From NCBI GenBank assembly GCA_020725865.1, contig DYEC01000010.1:124001-188000 (forward strand): a stretch of DNA of 64,000 nucleotides. Reading direction: 5' to 3'. The notes under the pieces are model-generated. The model ran no database searches. It saw nothing but the letters and a program-made list of their open reading frames with translations, and was not told the origin of the DNA. The number at the start of each line of letters is the position of its first letter. The stretch's first letter is position 1. This document shows, piece after piece, positions 45,905 through 54,748 of the stretch. Source of the stretch: Anaerolinea sp. (GTDB lineage Bacteria; Chloroflexota; Anaerolineae; Anaerolineales; Anaerolineaceae). Both the position numbers and the translations under genes were made by a program.

Positions 45905-46270
45905 ATGAGTGCTGGAAAAATAATCGCTTATATCCTGGCGGCAATATTGATCTTCTTCGGTGTGTTGTTCATTTGGGCCACCTTCAGTCCCTCGGGTAAA
46001 GTCGGCTGGCTGATTGTCGGTGTCCTCAGCGTTCTGATCGGTTTTGGGTTGATCGCGCTGGCTTCGCGGCGCGCTGCACAACCTGCTGCTGGCAACACTA
46101 CCACCCTGAAAATTGATCTACCCGGAAACGTTTCGCTGGACTCGCTTAAGTGCAAATCCTGTGGAGGCGTTTTAACGGCCGACAATATTCAAATGATCGC
46201 AGGTGCACCGGTTGTGACCTGCCCCTATTGCAAAACATCTTACCAGCTTACCGAAGAACCCAAGTGGTAA
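45905..46270 (+). CDS. small membrane protein with zinc ribbon
   Basis: A 121-residue protein with two membrane segments (about 5-25 and 34-53) and a C-terminal zinc ribbon, CKSCGG (about 85-90) and CPYC (about 107-110). GGAGG is upstream of the start. It is not recognised as a named family. It is the first gene of a five-gene head-to-tail run, with only 26 bases to the DUF2207-like protein. The ribbon is on the cytosolic side if the first segment is a signal anchor. Its membership of the radical SAM locus is inferred from spacing and strand only. Confidence 0.78.
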   Translation: MSAGKIIAYILAAILIFFGVLFIWATFSPSGKVGWLIVGVLSVLIGFGLIALASRRAAQPAAGNTTTLKIDLPGNVSLDSLKCKSCGGVLTADNIQMIAGAPVVTCPYCKTSYQLTEEPKW

Positions 46271-46296: not shown

Positions 46297-47964
46297 ATGA
46301 AAAAGTGGTTCAGCCTGTTCGTTCTATTCTGGCTATTTTTGCTGAACACAAACCCGGCTTTCGCTCAAACCTACCGTTTCCAGCTCAAAAGAGAAGTCGT
46401 CAATGTCTACATTACTTCAAACGGAACGCTCGACCTGGAGTATATCCTGGACTTTGTCAACGACGCCAATGCTGACCCGATTGATTTTGTAGATATCGGC
46501 CTTCCCAATGAGAATTATGACATAAGCAAAATACGCGCCGAAATCAACGGACAGCCGATTAAAAGCATCGAGCGCTCTCCCTATGTCACTTATGGCGTGG
46601 CACTTGGTCTGGGCAATAATGCCATACCACCCGGAAAAACTGGACGTGTTCATGTTGTAATTGAGGGTATCACAGGTGTGCTTTATGAAGGAACCGAAAA
46701 GGAAGCTGAAAAGTACGCCAGTTTTCAGTTCATGCCAAACTACTTTGGCAGTGAATATGTGTATGGCAATACTGAGCTCACCTTGACCATTTTCCTGCCG
46801 CCCGGCTTACAGCCCGAAGAGCCGCGTTATTACCCACCTCAAAACTGGCCCGGACCTGCAGAGCCGGAAAGCGGTTTTGACGACCAGGGACGCGTGTTTT
46901 ACCGCTGGCAATCGAGCCAGGCAAACGGCTCAACAAAGTACACTTTTGGAGCTGCTTTCCCTGCCCGTCTGGTACCTGAAAATGCCATCATTACTAAGCC
47001 GCCCTTCCGTCTCAATATCAGTGCAGACGATATTTGTGGCGCTGCTTTTTGCCTGGGCTTTTTAGGGTTTATCGGGCTGATTATTTACGGCTCCATTTGG
47101 GGAGAGAAAAAACGCAAATTGCAATACCTCCCCCCAAAGGTTTCTGTTGCCGGTCATGGAATTAAGCGCGGTTTGACAGCTGTTGAAGCTGCTATCGTCA
47201 TGGAACAACCAATGGACAAAATACTGTCCATGATCTTGTTCTCTACAATCAAGAAGGGCGCTGCAACTGTAAAAACCCGCGAACCGCTCGAAATTGATGT
47301 GGTGGATCCATTACCAGAAAATTTGCAGCCATACGAGAAAGAATTTCTCGAAGCCATGCAAGAAGATAAGGCGGCTGCAAGACGCCGGCTTTTACAGGAC
47401 ATGATGATCAATCTGGTCAAAAGTGTTTCTGAAAAAATGCGCGGCTTCAGTCGTAAAGAAACGGTGGATTACTACAAAAACATCGTTGAACGCGCCTGGC
47501 AATACGTGGAACAAGCAGATACTCCTGAAGTCAAAATGCAAAAATATGACGAGGTGATGGACTGGACCATGCTAGACCGCAAGCACCAGGAACGGACAGA
47601 AGAAGTCTTTCGGGGAGGACCAATATTTGTACCAGTCTGGTGGGGACGTTATGACCCCACATTTGGGCGTACTTACGGCGGCACACCGACTCAGGCACCC
47701 ATCTCCCTCCCCGGCGGTGGTGGCGGGGGGATTTCCCTGCCGACCCTGCCCGGCAGTGAGTTTGCCGCGTCTATTGCCCGGGGTATCGAAAACTTCTCAT
47801 CCAATGTTGTTGGTGATCTGACCAGTTTCACCGATCGCATTACCCAAACCACTAACCCAGTCCCCAAGACGACCTACACTCGCTCCGGGGGCGGCGGCAG
47901 ATCATGCGCTTGTGCGTGTGCCTGCGCCGGTTGTGCGTGTGCCTGCGCCGGCGGCGGTCGCTAG
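46297..47964 (+). CDS. DUF2207-like membrane protein with alternating Cys-Ala C-terminus
   Basis: A 555-residue membrane protein. ATG 46297 has AGGAGG upstream and starts a signal peptide ending in PAFAQ. An extracytoplasmic domain of about 230 residues (YRFQLKREVVNVYITSNGTLDLEYILDF) resembles the DUF2207 group. A membrane segment (about 248-270, FCLGFLGFIGLIIYGSIW) and a basic stop precede a cytosolic region of about 170 residues. A Gly-rich linker (LPGGGGGGISLP) leads to a tail region and the last 19 residues, CACACACAGCACACAGGGR: seven cysteines, mostly alternating with alanine. The next genes encode a radical SAM enzyme with a PqqD-like domain. I infer that the tail is its substrate, but metal binding or lipidation are alternatives. 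Confidence 0.8.
   Translation: MKKWFSLFVLFWLFLLNTNPAFAQTYRFQLKREVVNVYITSNGTLDLEYILDFVNDANADPIDFVDIGLPNENYDISKIRAEINGQPIKSIERSPYVTYGVALGLGNNAIPPGKTGRVHVVIEGITGVLYEGTEKEAEKYASFQFMPNYFGSEYVYGNTELTLTIFLPPGLQPEEPRYYPPQNWPGPAEPESGFDDQGRVFYRWQSSQANGSTKYTFGAAFPARLVPENAIITKPPFRLNISADDICGAAFCLGFLGFIGLIIYGSIWGEKKRKLQYLPPKVSVAGHGIKRGLTAVEAAIVMEQPMDKILSMILFSTIKKGAATVKTREPLEIDVVDPLPENLQPYEKEFLEAMQEDKAAARRRLLQDMMINLVKSVSEKMRGFSRKETVDYYKNIVERAWQYVEQADTPEVKMQKYDEVMDWTMLDRKHQERTEEVFRGGPIFVPVWWGRYDPTFGRTYGGTPTQAPISLPGGGGGGISLPTLPGSEFAASIARGIENFSSNVVGDLTSFTDRITQTTNPVPKTTYTRSGGGGRSCACACACAGCACACAGGGR
47910..47951 (+). repeat. perfect tandem repeat of 21 bases encoding CACACAG
   Basis: Two identical 21-base units lie at 47910-47930 and 47931-47951, beginning TTGTGCGTGTG. 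Each encodes one CACACAG block, in frame with the Cys-Ala tail of the upstream membrane protein. Unit length is a multiple of three, so slippage could add or remove blocks without shifting the frame. Confidence 0.95.
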
Positions 47965-47980
47965 CAGTCTGGGTGTCATT

Positions 47981-49405
47981 ATGAAATTGTTCAATTTGCA
48001 GGATATTGCAAAGCGTTTGAGAGGTGAACAGCAAGTGGCGCCTGCACCGTCCGCTGGGATTCATCACTACCTGCGCGAAGACGACACCGGCAAAGTAAGG
48101 CTTCATTTGCGGTTGGAAAAGGACGGCAGCGGCGTATTGCTAGTCAACGCCAGCCGCATGTACTACCTCAACGCAACCGCTGCGTACATGGCTTACCTGC
48201 GTCTGGAACAAATACCTATCCAATCTGCAATTAGGATGCTTACAAAGCGCTTTCATGTCTCGGAACGACAAGCTCTTGAGGACTATAGAAAGTTTCAGGA
48301 AGAATTGTCGCACTTGATTCAGCCGGGTGATGACTGTCCCGTTTGCGAGCTTGGGCTGGAAACGACAGCTCCCTTTTCTGACCGCCCTTCAGCGCCCTAT
48401 CGAATGGATCTGGCAATCACATATCGGTGTAACAATGATTGTTCACATTGCTATAATGCCAGACCGCGCCGCTACCCGGAACTGAACACATCCCATTGGA
48501 AGATGATCCTAGAACGCTTATGGCAATTGGGTATCCCTCACGTCGTATTCACGGGAGGCGAGCCCACACTCCGCTCTGACCTTGCCGAACTGATCGCCTG
48601 TGCCCAGCAGCTTGGACAGGTTGCTGGACTGAACACAAATGGACGCAGACTCAGCGACCCGGCTTTTGTTGAAACTCTAGTCAGTGCAGGACTGGATCAC
48701 GTACAGATCACCATCGAGTCTCACAACCCCGAAATTCACGATGTAATGGTACGTCACAAAGGCGCTTGGCAGGAAACCGTTCAGGGAATCCGTAATGCGC
48801 TGAAAAGCCGCCTCTTTGTCATGACCAATTCTACATTGCTGCAAACCAACAGTAGTCCCGAAAACCTGCACCGCCTGCTTGATTTTCTTGCCGATCTTGG
48901 GGTTCCAACTGTCGGTTTGAATGCGCTCATTTACTCCGGGCACGGGCTAGAGGTCAAGACCGGCCTTCCAGAAGCCAACCTGCCGCCGCTGCTCGACCTG
49001 GCACGCGAAGTGACAGAACGATCCGGCCAGCGCCTGATCTGGTATACACCCACACAATACTGCCATTTCGACCCGCTTCAACTGGATTTGGGCGTCAAGG
49101 GTTGCACCGCGGCATTGTACAACATGTGCATCGAGCCGGATGGCAGCGTCATCCCCTGTCAATCCTATTATCAGACGCTGGGTAATATTCTGGATGCTCC
49201 TTGGGAAACAATCTGGAATCATGAATTAGCAATAAAACTACGCGAACGCAAAGATCTGCCCTTCGCCTGCCAAACCTGTCTGCTACTTCAGCAATGCGGC
49301 GGTGGCTGCCCGCTGGCACGTCAAACAGCGCATACTCCCCAACCTTTCCCTATTCTTCCATTCCAGTTTGACAAAACGGAGATGCCCCATGAATCCATTC
49401 CGTAA
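47981..49405 (+). CDS. PqqD-like/radical SAM/SPASM domain protein
   Basis: A 474-residue enzyme. Residues about 25-115 are a PqqD-like RiPP-recognition domain (LRLEKDGSGVLLVNASRMYYLNATAAYMA). The radical SAM core has CNNDCSHC, with the 4Fe-4S cysteines C150, C154 and C157 (CxxxCxxC), and GGEPTLR (about 192-198) for SAM binding. An extra CPVC pair lies at 119-122. The C-terminal SPASM domain shows GCTAALYNMCIEPDG, IPCQ and the final C..C..C..C cluster (CQTCLLLQQCGGGC). The start is 17 bases after the stop of the Cys-tail protein, and the end overlaps the next gene by 17 bases. Predicted to install a radical-derived modification in a peptide. Confidence 0.93.
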   Translation: MKLFNLQDIAKRLRGEQQVAPAPSAGIHHYLREDDTGKVRLHLRLEKDGSGVLLVNASRMYYLNATAAYMAYLRLEQIPIQSAIRMLTKRFHVSERQALEDYRKFQEELSHLIQPGDDCPVCELGLETTAPFSDRPSAPYRMDLAITYRCNNDCSHCYNARPRRYPELNTSHWKMILERLWQLGIPHVVFTGGEPTLRSDLAELIACAQQLGQVAGLNTNGRRLSDPAFVETLVSAGLDHVQITIESHNPEIHDVMVRHKGAWQETVQGIRNALKSRLFVMTNSTLLQTNSSPENLHRLLDFLADLGVPTVGLNALIYSGHGLEVKTGLPEANLPPLLDLAREVTERSGQRLIWYTPTQYCHFDPLQLDLGVKGCTAALYNMCIEPDGSVIPCQSYYQTLGNILDAPWETIWNHELAIKLRERKDLPFACQTCLLLQQCGGGCPLARQTAHTPQPFPILPFQFDKTEMPHESIP

Positions 49406-50543
49406 ATTTCTGGAACGCATATTCCCGGCACCTTATCAACCCCTTCCCGCCGGCATTTACCACTATCAATCTGCGCCGGACACCGAATTTCCCTACCGTC
49501 TGCACCTGCGCCTGGAAAGCAATGGTGAAGGCGTACTGATTGTCAATGCCAGCACAGTTTTACACCTCAATCAGACTGCCGCAGAGATGGCTTATCACCT
49601 GGTGAAACAAACCCCATCTGAAGAAGCCGTTAAACAAATCGCCGGGCGGTATCGTGTTTCGCGCCAGCAGGCAGCTGAGGACTTTGAAAATTTTAAACAG
49701 CGTCTCGAAACGCTGATTTCCACGCCTGACCTCGATCCAGTCACCTATCTGGGATTCGAACGTCATGAGCCGTACAGCCAGCTTGCAGCCCCCTATCGGC
49801 TGGATTGCGCCCTGACCTATCGAACGACATCTGCGCCCGGTATTCATGAAACCCTCCAAAAACGTGTCAAACGTGAACTGGTAACAGAAGAATGGCAGGT
49901 TATCTTAAGTAAAGCCTGGCAGGCAGGCATCCCGCACATCATCTTCACCGGTGGTGAGCCGACTTTACGACCTGATTTGATTGATTTGGTCACATACGCG
50001 GAAAGTCTGGGACAGGTTACCGGTCTGATAACCGATGGCTCAAGGCTAACTGAGAAGGGCTATCTGCACCGTCTGTTACAGAGTGGGCTTGATCACATGA
50101 TGATTGTACTCGACCCAAGTGAGGAACAAGGCTGGGAAGCCATACGTGACACGCTGGCAGAAGACATTTTCCTCGCCGTCCATCTGACCCTGACCCCAAG
50201 AGAAAAAGGCAAAACCGTCGATTATCTTGAAAAGCTGGCAAAAATGGGCGTACAGTCCCTTTCGATCAGCGCCAGCGACCCCAACTTAAAATCGGAGCTT
50301 GGTCTGGCGCGTCAAATTACTGCCGACCATGGGATGTCTCTGGTTTGGGATTTGCCGGTGCCTTATTCAGGTATTAATCCAATTGCTCTGGAACTAGAAG
50401 AAAGCGGCGAAATCCCGCAGGGTGCAGGGCAGGCATGGCTGTATGTGGAACCCGATGGGGATGTCCTTCCCGGTCAGGGCATTCAAAAGGTGCTGGGTAA
50501 TTTGCTTACCGAGGATTGGGAGAAAATCTGGAGCAACCGATAA
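49389..50543 (+). CDS. degenerate radical SAM paralogue without cluster cysteines
   Basis: A 384-residue paralogue of the preceding protein. It keeps the PqqD-like domain (LRLESNGEGVLIVNASTVLHLNQTAAEMA) and the radical SAM fold, including IPHIIFTGGEPTLRPD (about 181-196). The CxxxCxxC is replaced by TTSAPGIH (T146, P150, H153), so the catalytic cluster cannot form. The SPASM cysteines are also gone (YVEPDGDVLPGQG), and the protein ends before the final Cys cluster. Only C140 remains in the whole protein. The open frame is intact and the upstream overlap is preserved, so it is not a pseudogene by frame criteria. A structural partner or regulator of the active enzyme is the likely role, by inference. 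Confidence 0.9.
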   Translation: MNPFRKFLERIFPAPYQPLPAGIYHYQSAPDTEFPYRLHLRLESNGEGVLIVNASTVLHLNQTAAEMAYHLVKQTPSEEAVKQIAGRYRVSRQQAAEDFENFKQRLETLISTPDLDPVTYLGFERHEPYSQLAAPYRLDCALTYRTTSAPGIHETLQKRVKRELVTEEWQVILSKAWQAGIPHIIFTGGEPTLRPDLIDLVTYAESLGQVTGLITDGSRLTEKGYLHRLLQSGLDHMMIVLDPSEEQGWEAIRDTLAEDIFLAVHLTLTPREKGKTVDYLEKLAKMGVQSLSISASDPNLKSELGLARQITADHGMSLVWDLPVPYSGINPIALELEESGEIPQGAGQAWLYVEPDGDVLPGQGIQKVLGNLLTEDWEKIWSNR

Positions 50544-50548
50544 AACTC

Positions 50549-51310
50549 ATGCTCACTCCAACCGAGTGGCACCAGCGCTTCAAGTTTCAGGTTCGTTGGA
50601 CACAACAGCTTCGCCGTTTCTTGCTGACGGAAGCCATCCCCCAAATGCCCAATCGCGCGTTGGAGGTCGGTTGCGGTACTGGAGCGGTTATTAACGACTT
50701 CCACCAATCCGGGACTCTGCCAACTCATGTACATCTTGTCGGGCTAGACATTCGTTTTGATTTTTTGCAACTGGCACAAAAACAGAAAGTAACCCTTGCC
50801 TGTGCAAACGCCTATTCCCTACCGTTCCCAGATGCCACTTTTGACTTGGTATATTGTCACTACCTTCTCCTCTGGCTGAAATACCCGCTCCCAGCATTGA
50901 TGGAAATGCACCGCGTTACCCGGAGCGGCGGCTGGGTCATTGCTATGGCAGAACCAGACTACGCGCACCGCATAGATTATCCACCTGTACTATCTGAATT
51001 GGGAAAATTGCAACGTCAGTCGCTTATTCAACAAGGTGCCAATCCAGATATTGGCGCCATGCTGGCGGGCTTATTCATTCAGGCGGGTTTCCAGAATATC
51101 AAAACAGGTTTGTTGGGCGGAGAATGGGATATACCTCAGGATGAAGAAACCTGGAGAGCCGAATGGCGCGTGTTGGAAGCCGATCTTCAGGAACTGGTTT
51201 CCAAGGAAAAACTACAGGAATATCGCAAACAGGATGCATCCGCCTGGAAAAGCGGCGAACGCATCCTGTTTGTGCCAACATTTTATGCAATAGGTCAGAT
51301 TCCCTGCTAA
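50549..51310 (+). CDS. SAM-dependent methyltransferase
   Basis: A 253-residue class I methyltransferase. RALEVGCGTGAVINDF is motif I (about 48-63), followed by HLVGLDIRFDFLQLA (motif II), AYSLPFPDATFDLVYCHYLLLWL (motif IV) and RSGGWVIAMAEPD (motif V/VI). The C-terminal part (about 150-253) has no recognised domain and should hold the substrate site. ATG 50549 lies five bases after the upstream stop, on the same strand. It is the last gene of the five-gene locus and is convergent with the ECF transporter ten bases away. A role in finishing the peptide modification is inferred from position only. Confidence 0.85.
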   Translation: MLTPTEWHQRFKFQVRWTQQLRRFLLTEAIPQMPNRALEVGCGTGAVINDFHQSGTLPTHVHLVGLDIRFDFLQLAQKQKVTLACANAYSLPFPDATFDLVYCHYLLLWLKYPLPALMEMHRVTRSGGWVIAMAEPDYAHRIDYPPVLSELGKLQRQSLIQQGANPDIGAMLAGLFIQAGFQNIKTGLLGGEWDIPQDEETWRAEWRVLEADLQELVSKEKLQEYRKQDASAWKSGERILFVPTFYAIGQIPC

Positions 51311-51320
51311 GCGGTTTCTA

Positions 51321-52157
51321 TCAGGAATTCATCTTTTCAAACTGCTCAAACATTTCTTCAACCGTCAGAGTAGATGGAGAAAAGCCCAAAGTGGCACAAC
51401 GCTGTGCCAGTTGTGTAATCTGCGGCGGCTCAAGAAAGGTCTGCGCCAGCACATCTGACATGCGAAAAACATCACGCGTATCACCGTCTGCCAGAATGCG
51501 ACCATTCCCCATCACAACCACCCGCCGAGCATATTTTGCCACAATCGGCATGTCGTGTGTGATGATAATGATTGTATGCCCAAGCTCTTCATTCAGCCGC
51601 TTCAAGAAATCCATGATTTCCAGCGACTGCCGCGCATCCTGACCAGTGGTTGGCTCATCCACAATGATCACTTTTGGGCGCAGTGCAAGAATGGAAGCAA
51701 TAGCTACCCGCTGCCGCAGCCCTTTGGAAAGAAAGAATGGATGCTCGCTAAAATATGCCTCATCCAACCCAACCACTCTGGCAGCTTCTTCGACCCTTTC
51801 CTTTACCTCATCCTCCGGCAGCTCTATATTGCGAGGACCATAGGCAATTTCATCCCAGCAATTATTGTTGAATAACTGGTGATCCGGGTTTTGAAACACA
51901 TACCCAACACGCCGCACCATTTGCACAATGGGCGTATTCTTTGAGTTCAGCCCATCTACAATAACATCGCCCCGCGTGGGTTTAAATAACCCGTTGAGGC
52001 ATTTTGAAAGGGTGGTTTTTCCGGAACCATTCTGACCGATGAAGGCAATGAATTCGCCATCATAAATTTCCATGTTAATATCGGACAGCGCCAGCGTGCC
52101 ATCCGTATAGCTGTACCACAGATTTTTAACCTCAATATAGGGTTTCTGATCACTCAT
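51321..52157 (-). CDS. ECF transporter ATPase, EcfA type (second)
   Basis: A 278-residue ABC ATPase of an energy-coupling-factor transporter. Walker A is GQNGSGKTTLSK, the Q-loop is VGYVFQNPDHQLFNNNCWDEIAYGPRN, the signature is LSKGLRQRVAIASILALRP (with K instead of the second G) and Walker B is VIIVDEPTTGQDARQSLE, with the H-loop IITHDMP. The N-terminal Y.DGT.AL.D motif is usual for EcfA. It overlaps the upstream ATPase gene by ATGA. It pairs with that protein to drive transport. Confidence 0.93.
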   Translation of the reverse strand: MSDQKPYIEVKNLWYSYTDGTLALSDINMEIYDGEFIAFIGQNGSGKTTLSKCLNGLFKPTRGDVIVDGLNSKNTPIVQMVRRVGYVFQNPDHQLFNNNCWDEIAYGPRNIELPEDEVKERVEEAARVVGLDEAYFSEHPFFLSKGLRQRVAIASILALRPKVIIVDEPTTGQDARQSLEIMDFLKRLNEELGHTIIIITHDMPIVAKYARRVVVMGNGRILADGDTRDVFRMSDVLAQTFLEPPQITQLAQRCATLGFSPSTLTVEEMFEQFEKMNS

Positions 52158-53032
52158 CGTTGCTCTCCCTGAAGAGTTCTATTTTTGATCAGATCTTTAA
52201 GTTTTTTCTCTGCCTCGTCGAGTGTGAGCGGCAATTGATGATTAGAATATCCTGCAGTCATTAGTTTGTAAAAAAAGAGTAAAGCACCCGGCGGATAAAC
52301 GCTTTTTTCTAATAAAAGCGGCATGTTTTGGAAGAACCGATGTGTCTCATCTTCAAGAACCAATTCCCCGTTTGAGAGCAAAATCATCCGATCCGCCAGC
52401 GGTATCAGATTCTCCAGACTGTGTTCAACAACAATAATCGTATTGCGATGCTCTTTCTTAAGCTCTTCCAGAACCTCAAAAACCCGCTTTCGGCTAACTG
52501 GGTCGAGCATTGAGGTCGGCTCATCCAGTATCATGACCTTTGGCGTCATTGCAAGAACAGCCGCCAAAGCAACCCGCTGTTTCTGACCGCCCGAAATCTC
52601 ATATGGCGGCTTCATCAGAAGCGGCTTCAGATTCACGAGATCCGTCACCCATTCCAGTCGCTCGCGAATTTCCGGGATACTCATGCCCAGATTTTCCATC
52701 CCAAAGACCAGCTCATCTTCCACAGTCATCGCGGTAAACTGCGCTTCGGGATCAGAAAAAACTACGCCCACAGAACGCTGCAAATCCCCCTTTTCATATT
52801 GCTCAACTTCCTTGCCAAAGACAAAGACCTCACCCTGTTTGATCCCATTGTACTGACCTGGGATCAAACCATCCAGCGAGTAAGCCAGCGTCGTTTTCCC
52901 GGAGCCATTTGGGCCAATTACGCCGATAAAATTTCCCTCTTCAATCGTCAGGTTGATATTACGCAAGGCAGGTTCAGTTGTGTTAATATACTGCCAGGAA
53001 TAATTTTTAACCTCAATAATCACTTTCGACAT
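52154..53032 (-). CDS. ECF transporter ATPase, EcfA type (first)
   Basis: A 292-residue ABC ATPase with Walker A GPNGSGKTTLAY, Q-loop VGVVFSDPEAQFTAMTVEDELVFGMEN, signature ISGGQKQRVALAAVLAMTP and Walker B VMILDEPTSMLDPVSR, plus the H-loop VVEHSLE. The Q-loop uses SDPEAQ instead of QNPDHQ, a common difference between the two EcfA paralogues. The last 60 residues extend beyond a minimal ATPase. It starts 15 bases after the ecfT stop, completing an EcfT-EcfA-EcfA order. Confidence 0.93.
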   Translation of the reverse strand: MSKVIIEVKNYSWQYINTTEPALRNINLTIEEGNFIGVIGPNGSGKTTLAYSLDGLIPGQYNGIKQGEVFVFGKEVEQYEKGDLQRSVGVVFSDPEAQFTAMTVEDELVFGMENLGMSIPEIRERLEWVTDLVNLKPLLMKPPYEISGGQKQRVALAAVLAMTPKVMILDEPTSMLDPVSRKRVFEVLEELKKEHRNTIIVVEHSLENLIPLADRMILLSNGELVLEDETHRFFQNMPLLLEKSVYPPGALLFFYKLMTAGYSNHQLPLTLDEAEKKLKDLIKNRTLQGEQR

Positions 53033-53047
53033 TGCTCTTCTCCTTGC

Positions 53048-53908
53048 CTAACCAAGCACCCCAGATGCCCAAATCGTCAACAGTGACGTATCCAATCCAA
53101 AGTAGCCAAACCCATATTTCAACACCAGAAGAGCCACAAACAAAACCCCAATCATAACGGTTAACACAATATCATGCGGCTTAAACGAGTAATGGGTCAG
53201 AATGTAATCCGCACGCTTTACTTTGCTTGCCTCGCCTGTAAATGCATAACCGCGCGCTACCAGTGCATTGGTAAACTCCTCCGACCGGCGCAGAGACAAC
53301 GCAAACAGCGGGATCATATACATAACATATTTACGAATTTTATAGGTTAGCGGCTTGCCAGTGGTGTCAAAGCCGCGCGCCTGTTCAGCCTGCCTAACAA
53401 TTTGAAAATCCTCCAAAACCATACCCGCCGAGCGCAGTGCCATTGCAAATACGTAGGTAACTACAAACGGTGCCTTAATACTGCGCATGGCAACAATCAC
53501 ATCCCGCTCGCGCGAGGTGCTGAGAAAGAACACCATTGTAACAATCATTGGCAGGATGCGGAAATAAACCACAATTGCATCGCGAATTCTTTCCCAATAA
53601 ATCTTGATTACCCCAAGCTGAACCAGCAGATGATACTCCGGATGATTGCCACTGAAAATGACATACGAGATCAGGATAATGGATCCCATCGAAATGGCAA
53701 CCGGAACATAAATGCGCAATATCTTAATGTCCACTTTGCTGAGCCACATCAAGACCAGGATGATCACCATAAGCAGGGCGTTCCATTCTGGTGCAGCAAT
53801 AAACATGGGAAACAAACTAACAATTAAAAGAAAAAATAATTTTACAAATGGATGAACCGCATAAATTGGAGACTCATTGGGCACATACCCCAACATGGTC
53901 TTATTCAT
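53048..53908 (-). CDS. ecfT: ECF transporter transmembrane component EcfT
   Basis: A 286-residue membrane protein with about five to six hydrophobic segments. The two coupling motifs of EcfT, AxARG-type, are visible as EQARGFDTTG and LVARGYAFTG, in the cytosolic loop that contacts both ATPases. The start at 53908 has GGAGG nine bases upstream. It follows the S-component gene after 84 bases that contain a strong hairpin. The order S, T, A, A is complete in one operon. Confidence 0.93.
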   Translation of the reverse strand: MNKTMLGYVPNESPIYAVHPFVKLFFLLIVSLFPMFIAAPEWNALLMVIILVLMWLSKVDIKILRIYVPVAISMGSIILISYVIFSGNHPEYHLLVQLGVIKIYWERIRDAIVVYFRILPMIVTMVFFLSTSRERDVIVAMRSIKAPFVVTYVFAMALRSAGMVLEDFQIVRQAEQARGFDTTGKPLTYKIRKYVMYMIPLFALSLRRSEEFTNALVARGYAFTGEASKVKRADYILTHYSFKPHDIVLTVMIGVLFVALLVLKYGFGYFGLDTSLLTIWASGVLG

Positions 53909-53936
53909 TCAAAATTCCTCCGTCAACACACAGAAT

Positions 53937-53965
53937 TGGGAGGAGGTCCTTGCGACCCCCTCCCA
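53937..53965. other. intercistronic hairpin between S-component and ecfT
   Basis: TGGGAGG pairs with CCTCCCA, and the stem continues inwards after one A-C mismatch with GGTC/GACC around a five-base loop, giving 11 base pairs. No T-run follows on the minus strand, so it is unlikely to be an intrinsic terminator. It could protect the 3' end of the S-component message. Confidence 0.6.
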
Positions 53966-53992
53966 GAGTCACAGGTCAAAGCGTAATAAACT

Positions 53993-54622
53993 TTATGCCC
54001 ACCACCGCTTCACAAAGGCTGGAGTGCGAATAACAACACCTGAGAGCGCTTTGAGCAAAATAAAGTTGAACACGATACCAGCTACGACATTCCCGCCGAA
54101 CCATCCCCAGATAAATAATGGTACCGACTCGGTTGTCAGCAAACCAAAGCCTTTGAGTACTACCAATGGCGAATAAAGAGCGCCAAATGCACTGGAGACA
54201 ATCATGGACAGGAAGAGTATCAAGTAATCGCGCCCCTTCTTCAAGCGTGGATCGGCTTTGAAGTAGCGAAATGCCCACGCCGGCAGTAAACCCTGCACTA
54301 GATTAGCAGGAATATACGCCAGTGAGACATAGAACGGGGTACCGGCAATGCCATTGGAGAAGAATGGGAAAATGAAACCGGCAATGACACCCCATAGGCC
54401 GAACCAGATCGAGCCCACTTGTTGAACAGCAATGCCTGTCCAGAAAAAGTTCACACCAAAACCTAGCGGGAAGCTGATACTGCCAAATGCTCCCACAACA
54501 AAACCAATCCCGATCAGCAGGGCAAGAATAACAATATGAATAACGCCCACTGATCGCTTTTCACCTGGTTGAACAGTCCAGATTTGTTCAGCTGTTAAAT
54601 CTGCAGGTTTACTTGTAGCCAT
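53993..54622 (-). CDS. ECF transporter S component (substrate unknown)
   Basis: A 209-residue membrane protein with about six segments after a 25-residue soluble N-terminus. The position at the head of an ecfT-ecfA-ecfA operon, the size and the glycine-rich hydrophobic segments (FGSISFPLGFGVNFFWTG) fit an S component. The last membrane segment is GWFGGNVVAGIVFNFILL. ATG 54622 has AAAGGGA eight bases upstream, and an in-frame ATG at 54673 lacks one. I cannot name the vitamin or metal. The substrate clue would be a riboswitch, and none is recognised in the leader. Confidence 0.85.
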   Translation of the reverse strand: MATSKPADLTAEQIWTVQPGEKRSVGVIHIVILALLIGIGFVVGAFGSISFPLGFGVNFFWTGIAVQQVGSIWFGLWGVIAGFIFPFFSNGIAGTPFYVSLAYIPANLVQGLLPAWAFRYFKADPRLKKGRDYLILFLSMIVSSAFGALYSPLVVLKGFGLLTTESVPLFIWGWFGGNVVAGIVFNFILLKALSGVVIRTPAFVKRWWA

Positions 54623-54748
54623 GGCAAATTCCCTTTCTACTGGTTTGGAGTATGATATTAAAAAATTTGGCAAGACACAAGGACTCTGCTAACTGGCCAG
54701 CAACCTCCTTTCCGCAAATACTGCTTTTTGCACAGACGCTTTGACCAG

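Follow-up and report, generated by a model that had tools for sequence, protein, structure and literature searches.

Sactipeptide and ranthipeptide maturases act on short free peptides. Three such maturases, SkfB, SuiB, and CteB, carry an N-terminal recognition element (RRE) for ribosomally synthesized and post-translationally modified peptides (RiPPs) and combine a PqqD-like domain with a radical S-adenosylmethionine (SAM) domain and a SPASM domain. An enzyme of the same architecture, P0002, is encoded in a 64,000-nucleotide stretch of Anaerolinea sp. contig DYEC01000010.1 (the window; host genome, 3.12 Mb). The analyzed cluster spans positions 46297–51310 of the window, and P0002 follows the gene for a membrane protein, P0001, that ends in a repetitive Cys-Ala tail. 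SkfB, SuiB, and CteB are the top structural matches of P0002. In contrast to theirs, its presumed substrate is a 555-residue anchored protein, accompanied by a pseudo-enzyme (P0003) and a methyltransferase (P0004). We consider it likely, with a probability of roughly 0.8, that P0002 acts on the Cys-Ala tail and that the tail remains part of the protein. The features at the center of this reading are as follows.

46297–47964, + strand: P0001, 555-residue tail-bearing membrane protein, relative of the DUF2207 superfamily; signal-like N-terminus, extracytoplasmic beta domain, one transmembrane segment, cytosolic helical domain, Gly-rich linker, and Cys-Ala tail (predicted layout)
47905–47961, + strand: Cys-Ala tail, CACACACAGCACACAGGGR, C-terminus of P0001; presumed modification site
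47981–49405, + strand: P0002, enzyme with PqqD-like (RRE), radical SAM, and SPASM domains; presumed tail maturase

The closest published parallel that we found is itself putative. In PMC12452194, TIGR04222 membrane proteins with C-proximal Cys-rich segments, often encoded beside MNIO (DUF692) enzymes, are proposed as substrates, with tails predicted to be periplasmic; the association is loose, and 490 of 1372 genomes in Table 3 of that paper have no MNIO genes. The two systems share a large membrane protein with a low-complexity, Cys-bearing C-terminus and an adjoining RiPP-type modifying enzyme. They differ in that the published enzyme is an MNIO and the cysteines are scattered in Ser/Gly sequence, whereas here the enzyme is a radical SAM/SPASM protein, the motif is fixed, the tail is predicted to be cytosolic, and the association is nearly complete. 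P0001 falls outside the TIGR04222/MNIO class, having no NCBIfam hit at E up to 0.1 and a radical SAM enzyme as its neighbor.

PqqD and PqqE of pyrroloquinoline quinone biosynthesis also bring together a PqqD-like domain and a radical SAM/SPASM enzyme, and PqqE ranks high among the sequence and structure matches of P0002, but P0002 scores 117.4 bits against PQQ_syn_pqqE (TIGR02109), far below the equivalog cut-off of 381.35 bits. DUF2207 proteins are membrane proteins of the same superfamily as P0001 by profile. One of them, SMU.243 of Streptococcus mutans, is described in PMC10457818 as a protein of unknown function that affects stress tolerance and biofilm, and PMC12631010 mentions a DUF2207 gene near ovothiol genes without drawing a link. 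No paper with the tail string or HSACHSAC and none combining radical SAM with DUF2207 was found in a literature search whose coverage excluded most subscription papers and all bioRxiv-only preprints. No description of a radical-SAM version was found either, as judged partly by titles and abstracts, so silence in print is not established.

Conservation of the tail

The (CA)4 pattern of the P0001 C-terminus (CACACACAGCACACAGGGR) occurs once in the host genome. Among 122 distinct tail-bearing relatives (126 matches to a Cys-Ala text pattern minus three unrelated reading frames and L060, where ambiguous bases interrupt the tail), the last 10 residues never differ. Synonymous variation is free across the same tails: each Cys codon is a mix of TGC and TGT, and each Ala, Gly, and Arg position uses at least four codons. 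Because the residues are fixed in distinct relatives while the codons vary freely, the tail, judged from these sequences, is selected at the protein level and almost certainly functional. The form (CA)4G(CA)3 is found in 92 of the 122, and the others have more or fewer CA units before or after the middle Gly. In one of the 122, Ser replaces this Gly.

Since the 122 tails had been chosen by text pattern, the denominator was checked separately. At the loci in hand, 123 of 133 distinct stop-ending proteins matching the family profile carry the tail; this count left out sequences open at a contig end (four type 1, the P0001 family, and two type 2, a sister family described below). The 10 tailless proteins are broken frames (L143, L148, and two pieces of L060), single-domain pieces (L077, L187, and L259), and short paralogs made of a transmembrane segment plus the cytosolic domain (L127, L132, and L186). 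No full-length type 1 protein without a Cys tail was present among the 133. The earlier note had held that tailless homologs beside the same enzymes would argue against a link; no full-length case was found, only the short paralogs of L127 and L132, whose genomes also encode a tailed protein.

Co-inheritance of the tail protein and the enzyme

The distribution of the two genes was compared in the window genome with 60 relatives (61 genomes) and in 400 genomes across the phylum Chloroflexota; at least 10 genomes are shared between the sets. The enzyme was scored as present at E <1e-100 for type 1 and about 1e-90 for type 2. The protein was scored as present with any type 1 match in the 61 genomes, at E <1e-100 in the 400, and at E <1e-60 for type 2. 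These thresholds were chosen after seeing gaps in the match lists.

Both the tail protein and the enzyme are present in 48 of the 61 genomes and neither in 12; the remaining one (G024) has only a piece of the membrane protein. In the phylum-wide set, 28 genomes have both and 372 have neither at the strong-match thresholds. A Cys-tailed protein with no enzyme anywhere in the genome, the other observation that had been named as evidence against a link, was therefore seen in 0 of 28 genomes of the phylum set and at most in 1 of 49 from the set of 61 (G024). At weaker E values an enzyme match occurs in 59 of the 61 genomes, and in the 400 weaker matches occur in G435, G195, G156, and G251, the first two of which belong to the second tail type.

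The pairing extends to genomes in which the genes are apart. In G057 about 126 kb of one contig separates the enzyme, at 155 kb, from the tailed protein, at 282 kb, and in five genomes (G534, G600, G061, G673, and G674) they are on different contigs, with the protein still Cys-Ala-tailed in all. A strong enzyme match is found in 33 of 37 genomes of the window's own family (f1). The full-length tail protein is present as one copy per genome, further matches being pieces or short paralogs. The cluster is carried by loci titled Bellilinea caldifistulae, Thermanaerothrix daxensis, Ornatilinea apprima, Leptolinea tardivitalis, Longilinea arvoryzae, and Pelolinea submarina. Beyond Chloroflexota, probed through the small groups of L087 and L090 only (titled Deltaproteobacteria/delta proteobacterium), the full-length tail protein was found in three of seven and one of three genomes. 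The pairing of tail protein and enzyme is real.

A second tail type and the enzyme phylogeny

A second Cys tail type with its own enzyme was also found. Weak matches led to a sister family (type 2) of proteins with near-invariant DACHSAC repeat tails ending in VSRF. Most are encoded directly upstream of their own PqqD-like/radical SAM/SPASM enzyme, which is about 33% identical to P0002 (L183, L184, L209–L224, and L245–L247; for example, L184:4804-8117). The repeat tail is present in all 31 stop-ending type 2 family proteins in hand, and one genome (G072) carries both tail systems. In 249 genomes of that class, 31 have the protein (or a piece of it) with the enzyme, one has the enzyme alone, and 217 have neither at these thresholds; the enzyme is thus present in all 31 genomes with the protein, and at least a piece of the protein is present in 31 of the 32 with the enzyme. 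Within the fetched stretches the type 2 system consists of the tail protein and the enzyme alone.

Near some HSAC-type loci, a few kb away, are weakly related proteins (L220:10576-11001, L246:8030-9940, and L247:3-827) that end in Gly-rich sequence and lack Cys in their final 75 residues. The Cys tail is seen in the enzyme-paired members of the DUF2207 superfamily.

A phylogenetic tree of 49 enzymes placed the 12 HSAC-type enzymes on one side of a branch with 100/100 support and the CA-type enzymes on the other. The enzyme partners of proteins with a G(CA)4 end all belong to one CA-type clade, which also holds three G(CA)3-paired enzymes (L127, L132, and L243). In a first tree the middle label had been assigned by gene neighborhood (three changes, with L243 a misfit); in a second tree, labeled purely according to the tail, the HSAC/CA split was unchanged. 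The two tail languages match two enzyme clades.

The enzyme and its paralog

The remaining features of the enzyme genes and of the downstream methyltransferase gene are as follows.

48050–48316, + strand: P0002 PqqD-like/RRE region, residues 24–112; beta strands followed by three helices in the model
48428–48451, + strand: P0002 CxxxCxxC motif (C150, C154, and C157)
49389–50543, + strand: P0003, pseudo-radical-SAM paralog with a PqqD-like domain, without CxxxCxxC and SPASM-spaced cysteines; presumed substrate-binding or scaffolding partner
50549–51310, + strand: P0004, class I SAM methyltransferase; alternative start TTG at 50516

The description of P0002 as a PqqD-like/radical SAM/SPASM enzyme holds. 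Radical SAM and SPASM matches are above the Pfam cut-off (SPASM, 38.7 against 21.5 bits), and the PqqD match is just below it (21.5 against 23.4 bits) and backed by the model; PqqD is above cut-off in P0003 and in both type 2 enzymes scanned. All 24 aligned P0002-type members have CxxxCxxC, and C375, C383, C393, C430, C433, C439, and C443, the SPASM auxiliary-cluster cysteines, are invariant in them. The P0002 model (mean predicted local distance difference test [pLDDT] score, 79.8) matches SkfB best (Z 27.3; 346 residues; root-mean-square deviation [rmsd], 3.8), followed by SuiB (Z 24.5; 373 residues; rmsd, 3.9). The alignments with these two begin at residues 29–39 and reach the PqqD-like domain, the only ones to do so among the first 40 rows, although this list is hardly a test of residues before 123. 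Behind them come sulfatase maturases, PqqE, and others, aligned over the core alone, and anSME (Z 23.1) and EpeE (Z 16.2) are also among the matches. Sequence profiles rank SkfB and PqqE first. Assignment of P0002 to PqqE, NirJ, Ahb, or another named equivalog was rejected, as the 25 best NCBIfam scores shown are all far below cut-off. The modeled fold is not enough to assign a reaction.

P0003 has PqqD and radical SAM matches above the Pfam cut-off, and its reported lack of the radical SAM cysteines applies to the whole group: CxxxCxxC is absent in 28 of 28 aligned members and SPASM-spaced cysteines are found in none. It resembles the TIGR04347 pseudo-SAM/SPASM proteins, radical-SAM-like proteins that by family name have no activity, but scores far below their cut-off (41.3 against 525 bits) and carries a PqqD-like domain. 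In the G(CA)4 clade, all eight pseudo-enzymes examined (L239:5174-6487 and seven alike) lack CxxxCxxC and keep SPASM-like cysteine spacing.

No plasmid record matching P0002 at E 1e-40 and no viral contig encoding a P0001 relative was found (285 stretches matched a short pattern), and a mobile or phage origin was rejected on these grounds.

The membrane protein

Two further features of P0001 bear on how the tail might be reached.

47023–47118, + strand: transmembrane helix, AlphaFold residues 243–274, with KKRK inside or just after it; hydropathy segment 241–259 and charge
47818–47865, + strand: conserved segment, residues 508–523, with F511, T516, and T519-N520-P521; directly before the variable linker

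As to the label "DUF2207-like," P0001 itself has no Pfam match and so none to DUF2207 (PF09972), which is matched weakly by two of 40 family members (best E, 0.052). A link to the superfamily comes from the P0001 family profile, which matches the type 2 sister family with 99.9% probability over 393 columns, ending before the tail; the type 2 member at L183 passes the DUF2207 cut-off. This member also matches TIGR04222 at E 5.9e-5, below the TIGR04222 cut-off, and through it the TIGR04222 and P0001-family scaffolds may be distantly related. By sequence, the only match of P0001 to a solved structure is at chance level (E 0.046). Fold matches of the model to M1 aminopeptidases and oligosaccharyltransferase subunits do not exceed a query-based template modeling score of about 0.25 and were read as a shared beta fold, not as function.

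The topology proposed earlier, a signal peptide, one membrane segment, and a cytosolic tail, is predicted by hydropathy for most of 40 family members. Exactly two hydrophobic segments (N-terminal and near residue 245–275) are seen in 26, three in 11, four in one, and one in two, and in some members the extra segments include the tail itself. In P0001 only the inner segment passes the threshold, and the N-terminal one was assigned by eye. The residues that follow the inner segment carry a net positive charge in 38 of the 40 members and are neutral in L037 and L082. From the segment pattern and this charge, the tail is predicted to be cytosolic.

The tail region is disordered in the AlphaFold model (mean pLDDT of about 31–47 for residues 521–555). 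Before it, F511, T516, T519, N520, and P521 are invariant in 40 of 40 family members, and we infer that segment 508–523 is a candidate recognition sequence for the PqqD-like domain. The distance from the last TNP to the tail has a median of 18.5 residues (range, 11–316; 114 measured), the longest perhaps measured from an unrelated TNP. TNP was not seen among the C-termini listed for the (CA)4-ended and HSAC types.

Two unusual proteins were also recorded. At L187:4442-7078 a Ser/Thr-kinase-like protein is fused to the family N-domain and to a C-terminus that resembles formylglycine-generating enzymes (the kinase and the C-terminal domain were identified by eye); its genome, G257, also has a normal cluster. 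The 1139-residue open frame at L229:990-4409 has a Cys-Ala tail, compared with the usual 550–600 residues, and its BLAST similarity to P0001 is weak.

Gene order and neighborhood

All four genes described from the sequence, including the cysteine-less paralog and the methyltransferase, were recovered in place. A further small gene precedes them on the + strand, giving the order P0005-P0001-P0002-P0003-P0004.

45905–46270, + strand: P0005, small protein, conserved as the first cluster gene; hydrophobic N-terminal part (two segments by eye) and CxxC/CxxC zinc-ribbon-like domain at the C-terminus

The genes are tightly packed. P0002 starts at ATG 47981, 16 bases past the P0001 stop, one fewer than the 17 bases reported before; the overlap reported between genes was confirmed at the P0003 start (ATG 49389), 17 bases inside the end of P0002. 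P0004, a Methyltransf_11 protein by Pfam, more likely starts at ATG 50549 than at the overlapping TTG 50516.

Gene content was surveyed at 63 loci with flanks of at most 8 kb, from a genome collection overlapping with the other genome sets. The window order is kept at 48, of which 43 have no gap greater than 300 bases. Ten of the other 15 have a cluster gene running off a contig end, and L047, L069, L077, L087, and L092 deviate otherwise. P0005 has only weak zinc-ribbon matches (Pfam and NCBIfam). A homolog lies upstream of the tail protein at 56 of the 63 loci, and the gene belongs to the cluster.

The 14 commonest gene families around these loci were named by eye, the first lumping P0002, P0003, and P0004. 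Beyond the cluster, the commonest neighbors are a ligA-like gene (25/63) and an RlmI-like gene (21/63), followed by ATP-binding cassette (ABC) ATPases (13/63). Genes that by eye are IscU-like, SufS-like, or Rieske-like are each found near 7 of the 63 loci (for example, L063:11742-13409) and might matter for an iron-sulfur (Fe-S)-dependent enzyme or a metal-binding tail. In the window, convergent genes downstream on the minus strand (51321–54673) resemble an energy-coupling factor transporter set, with two ATPases and T and S components (by eye).

Proposed mechanism

Together, co-inheritance and the matching of tail and enzyme types strongly suggest that P0002 modifies the cysteines of the tail. 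P0001 would insert in the membrane with its N-domain outside and the helical domain, flexible linker, and tail predicted in the cytosol. The PqqD-like domain of P0002 would then grip P0001 near the conserved pre-linker segment, aided by P0003 where present, and the radical SAM/SPASM center would work along the disordered tail. The tentatively favored chemistry, at a little under even odds, is thioether cross-linking of Cys sulfurs to neighboring backbone or Ala carbons; Cys oxidation of the sulfatase-maturase kind is doubtful, epimerization slightly more so, and the rest is unassigned. P0004 could conceivably add methyl groups. The tail would not be cut off and might serve on the cytosolic face as a permanent Cys-based module built by the enzyme, speculatively one that binds metal or resists proteolysis. 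Pseudo-enzyme and methyltransferase are not essential to the pairing, since neither was found in the stretches fetched around the second tail type.

Alternative explanations

Several observations weigh against modification of a retained tail by P0002. The cytosolic position of the tail is a prediction from hydropathy and charge. The genomes are related, so Fisher p-values for co-occurrence overstate independence. In G024 a tail-protein fragment occurs without the enzyme (a contig-edge piece with the tail end not in view), and G672 has a short N-domain piece without a strong enzyme match. Conversely, the type 1 enzyme was found without a detected tail protein in G456 (85% complete), in G585 (68% complete; same genus as G456), and in G457, where the enzyme lies at a contig edge; the type 2 enzyme stands alone in G638 (82% complete; enzyme at a contig start), and G156 has only a pseudo-enzyme-like match. 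The tailless short paralogs (L127:3823-4695, L132:3602-4612, and L186:5794-6504) consist of the transmembrane segment and cytosolic domain only, and those of L127 and L132 adjoin a type 1 enzyme, in genomes that also encode the full-length tailed protein. The number of CA units maps imperfectly on the enzyme tree, with four label changes against a minimum of two and a shuffled mean of 16.4 (three labels strictly by tail). Neither pseudo-enzyme nor methyltransferase has a match in the fetched stretches around type 2 genes. Lastly, an ABC ATPase family, the sole transporter-like one of the 14 neighbor families, lies near 13 of the 63 loci, in both orientations and not tied to the cluster.

The alternative that survives best concerns the reaction. 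The cysteines may be oxidized (formylglycine or thioaldehyde type) or residues epimerized in place of thioether cross-linking, a possible outcome that we nonetheless regard as unlikely. The enzyme anSME oxidizes Cys in protein substrates, and both it and EpeE are among the structural matches of P0002; SkfB and SuiB rank higher, however, and alone reach the PqqD-like domain among the first 40 rows, and the fold does not fix the reaction.

Cys strings are often metal-binding, and the tail could be an unmodified metal- or cluster-binding string while P0002 makes a separate small molecule or cofactor used by the membrane protein, co-inheritance then reflecting a shared pathway. The best NCBIfam scores of P0002 include the haem-pathway proteins NirJ2, AhbC, and AhbD (all far below cut-off), and the Fe-S assembly-like genes at 7 of 63 loci each would fit. 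This explanation is improbable: the PqqD-like domain and the SkfB/SuiB match fit a peptide substrate better, each of two Cys tail languages has its own enzyme clade, and the type 2 system is just the tail protein and enzyme within the fetched stretches.

Still less probable is a RiPP precursor in the strict sense, from which the modified tail would be cleaved to give a small peptide that is released or exported. A leader-like conserved segment, a variable linker, and a fixed core do resemble a precursor, and the ABC ATPases could be invoked for export. However, unlike diversifying bioactive peptides, this 555-residue membrane protein has a tail that hardly varies and a single full-length copy in each genome, and no protease is among the 14 commonest neighbor families of the 63 loci (flanks at most 8 kb). 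Because there is no common protease neighbor and the ABC ATPases are not tied to the cluster, protein modification is indicated rather than manufacture of a released peptide, which is unlikely. The earlier proposal of a RiPP-like modification carried on an anchored protein is thereby supported by the genomic tests and qualified in one respect, in that it looks like protein modification without release.

That the tail is a DNA microsatellite or assembly slip has only the simplicity of the CA repeat at the protein level in its favor, and this origin, like chance, is ruled out by the codon pattern: across the 122 distinct sequences each position shows a mixture of synonymous codons, and the GGGR end and register are fixed.

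Implications

The proposal that the tail is modified has withstood genomic tests able to break it, and modification by P0002 is the best reading of the sequences. If it is true, RiPP-type radical chemistry would serve as a standing modification of an anchored scaffold that is common in the window's family, beyond the making of released peptides. Some members of a large superfamily without a known function would gain a concrete substrate-enzyme pair. Work on new thioether or Cys chemistry would gain a clean test peptide, and the conserved pseudo-radical-SAM partner would have a role open to dissection. Because named strains carry the cluster, the natural tail is directly accessible to study. 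More broadly, the odds seem evenly balanced that DUF2207-superfamily membrane proteins are a general chassis for Cys tails that radical SAM/SPASM enzymes build in place on the cytosolic face as a protein-bound prosthetic module, with at least two separate tail languages, (CA)nG(CA)n-GGGR and the DACHSAC repeat, paralleling the MNIO-paired TIGR04222 proteins; these tails would then represent a new class of peptide-derived cofactors that are never released.

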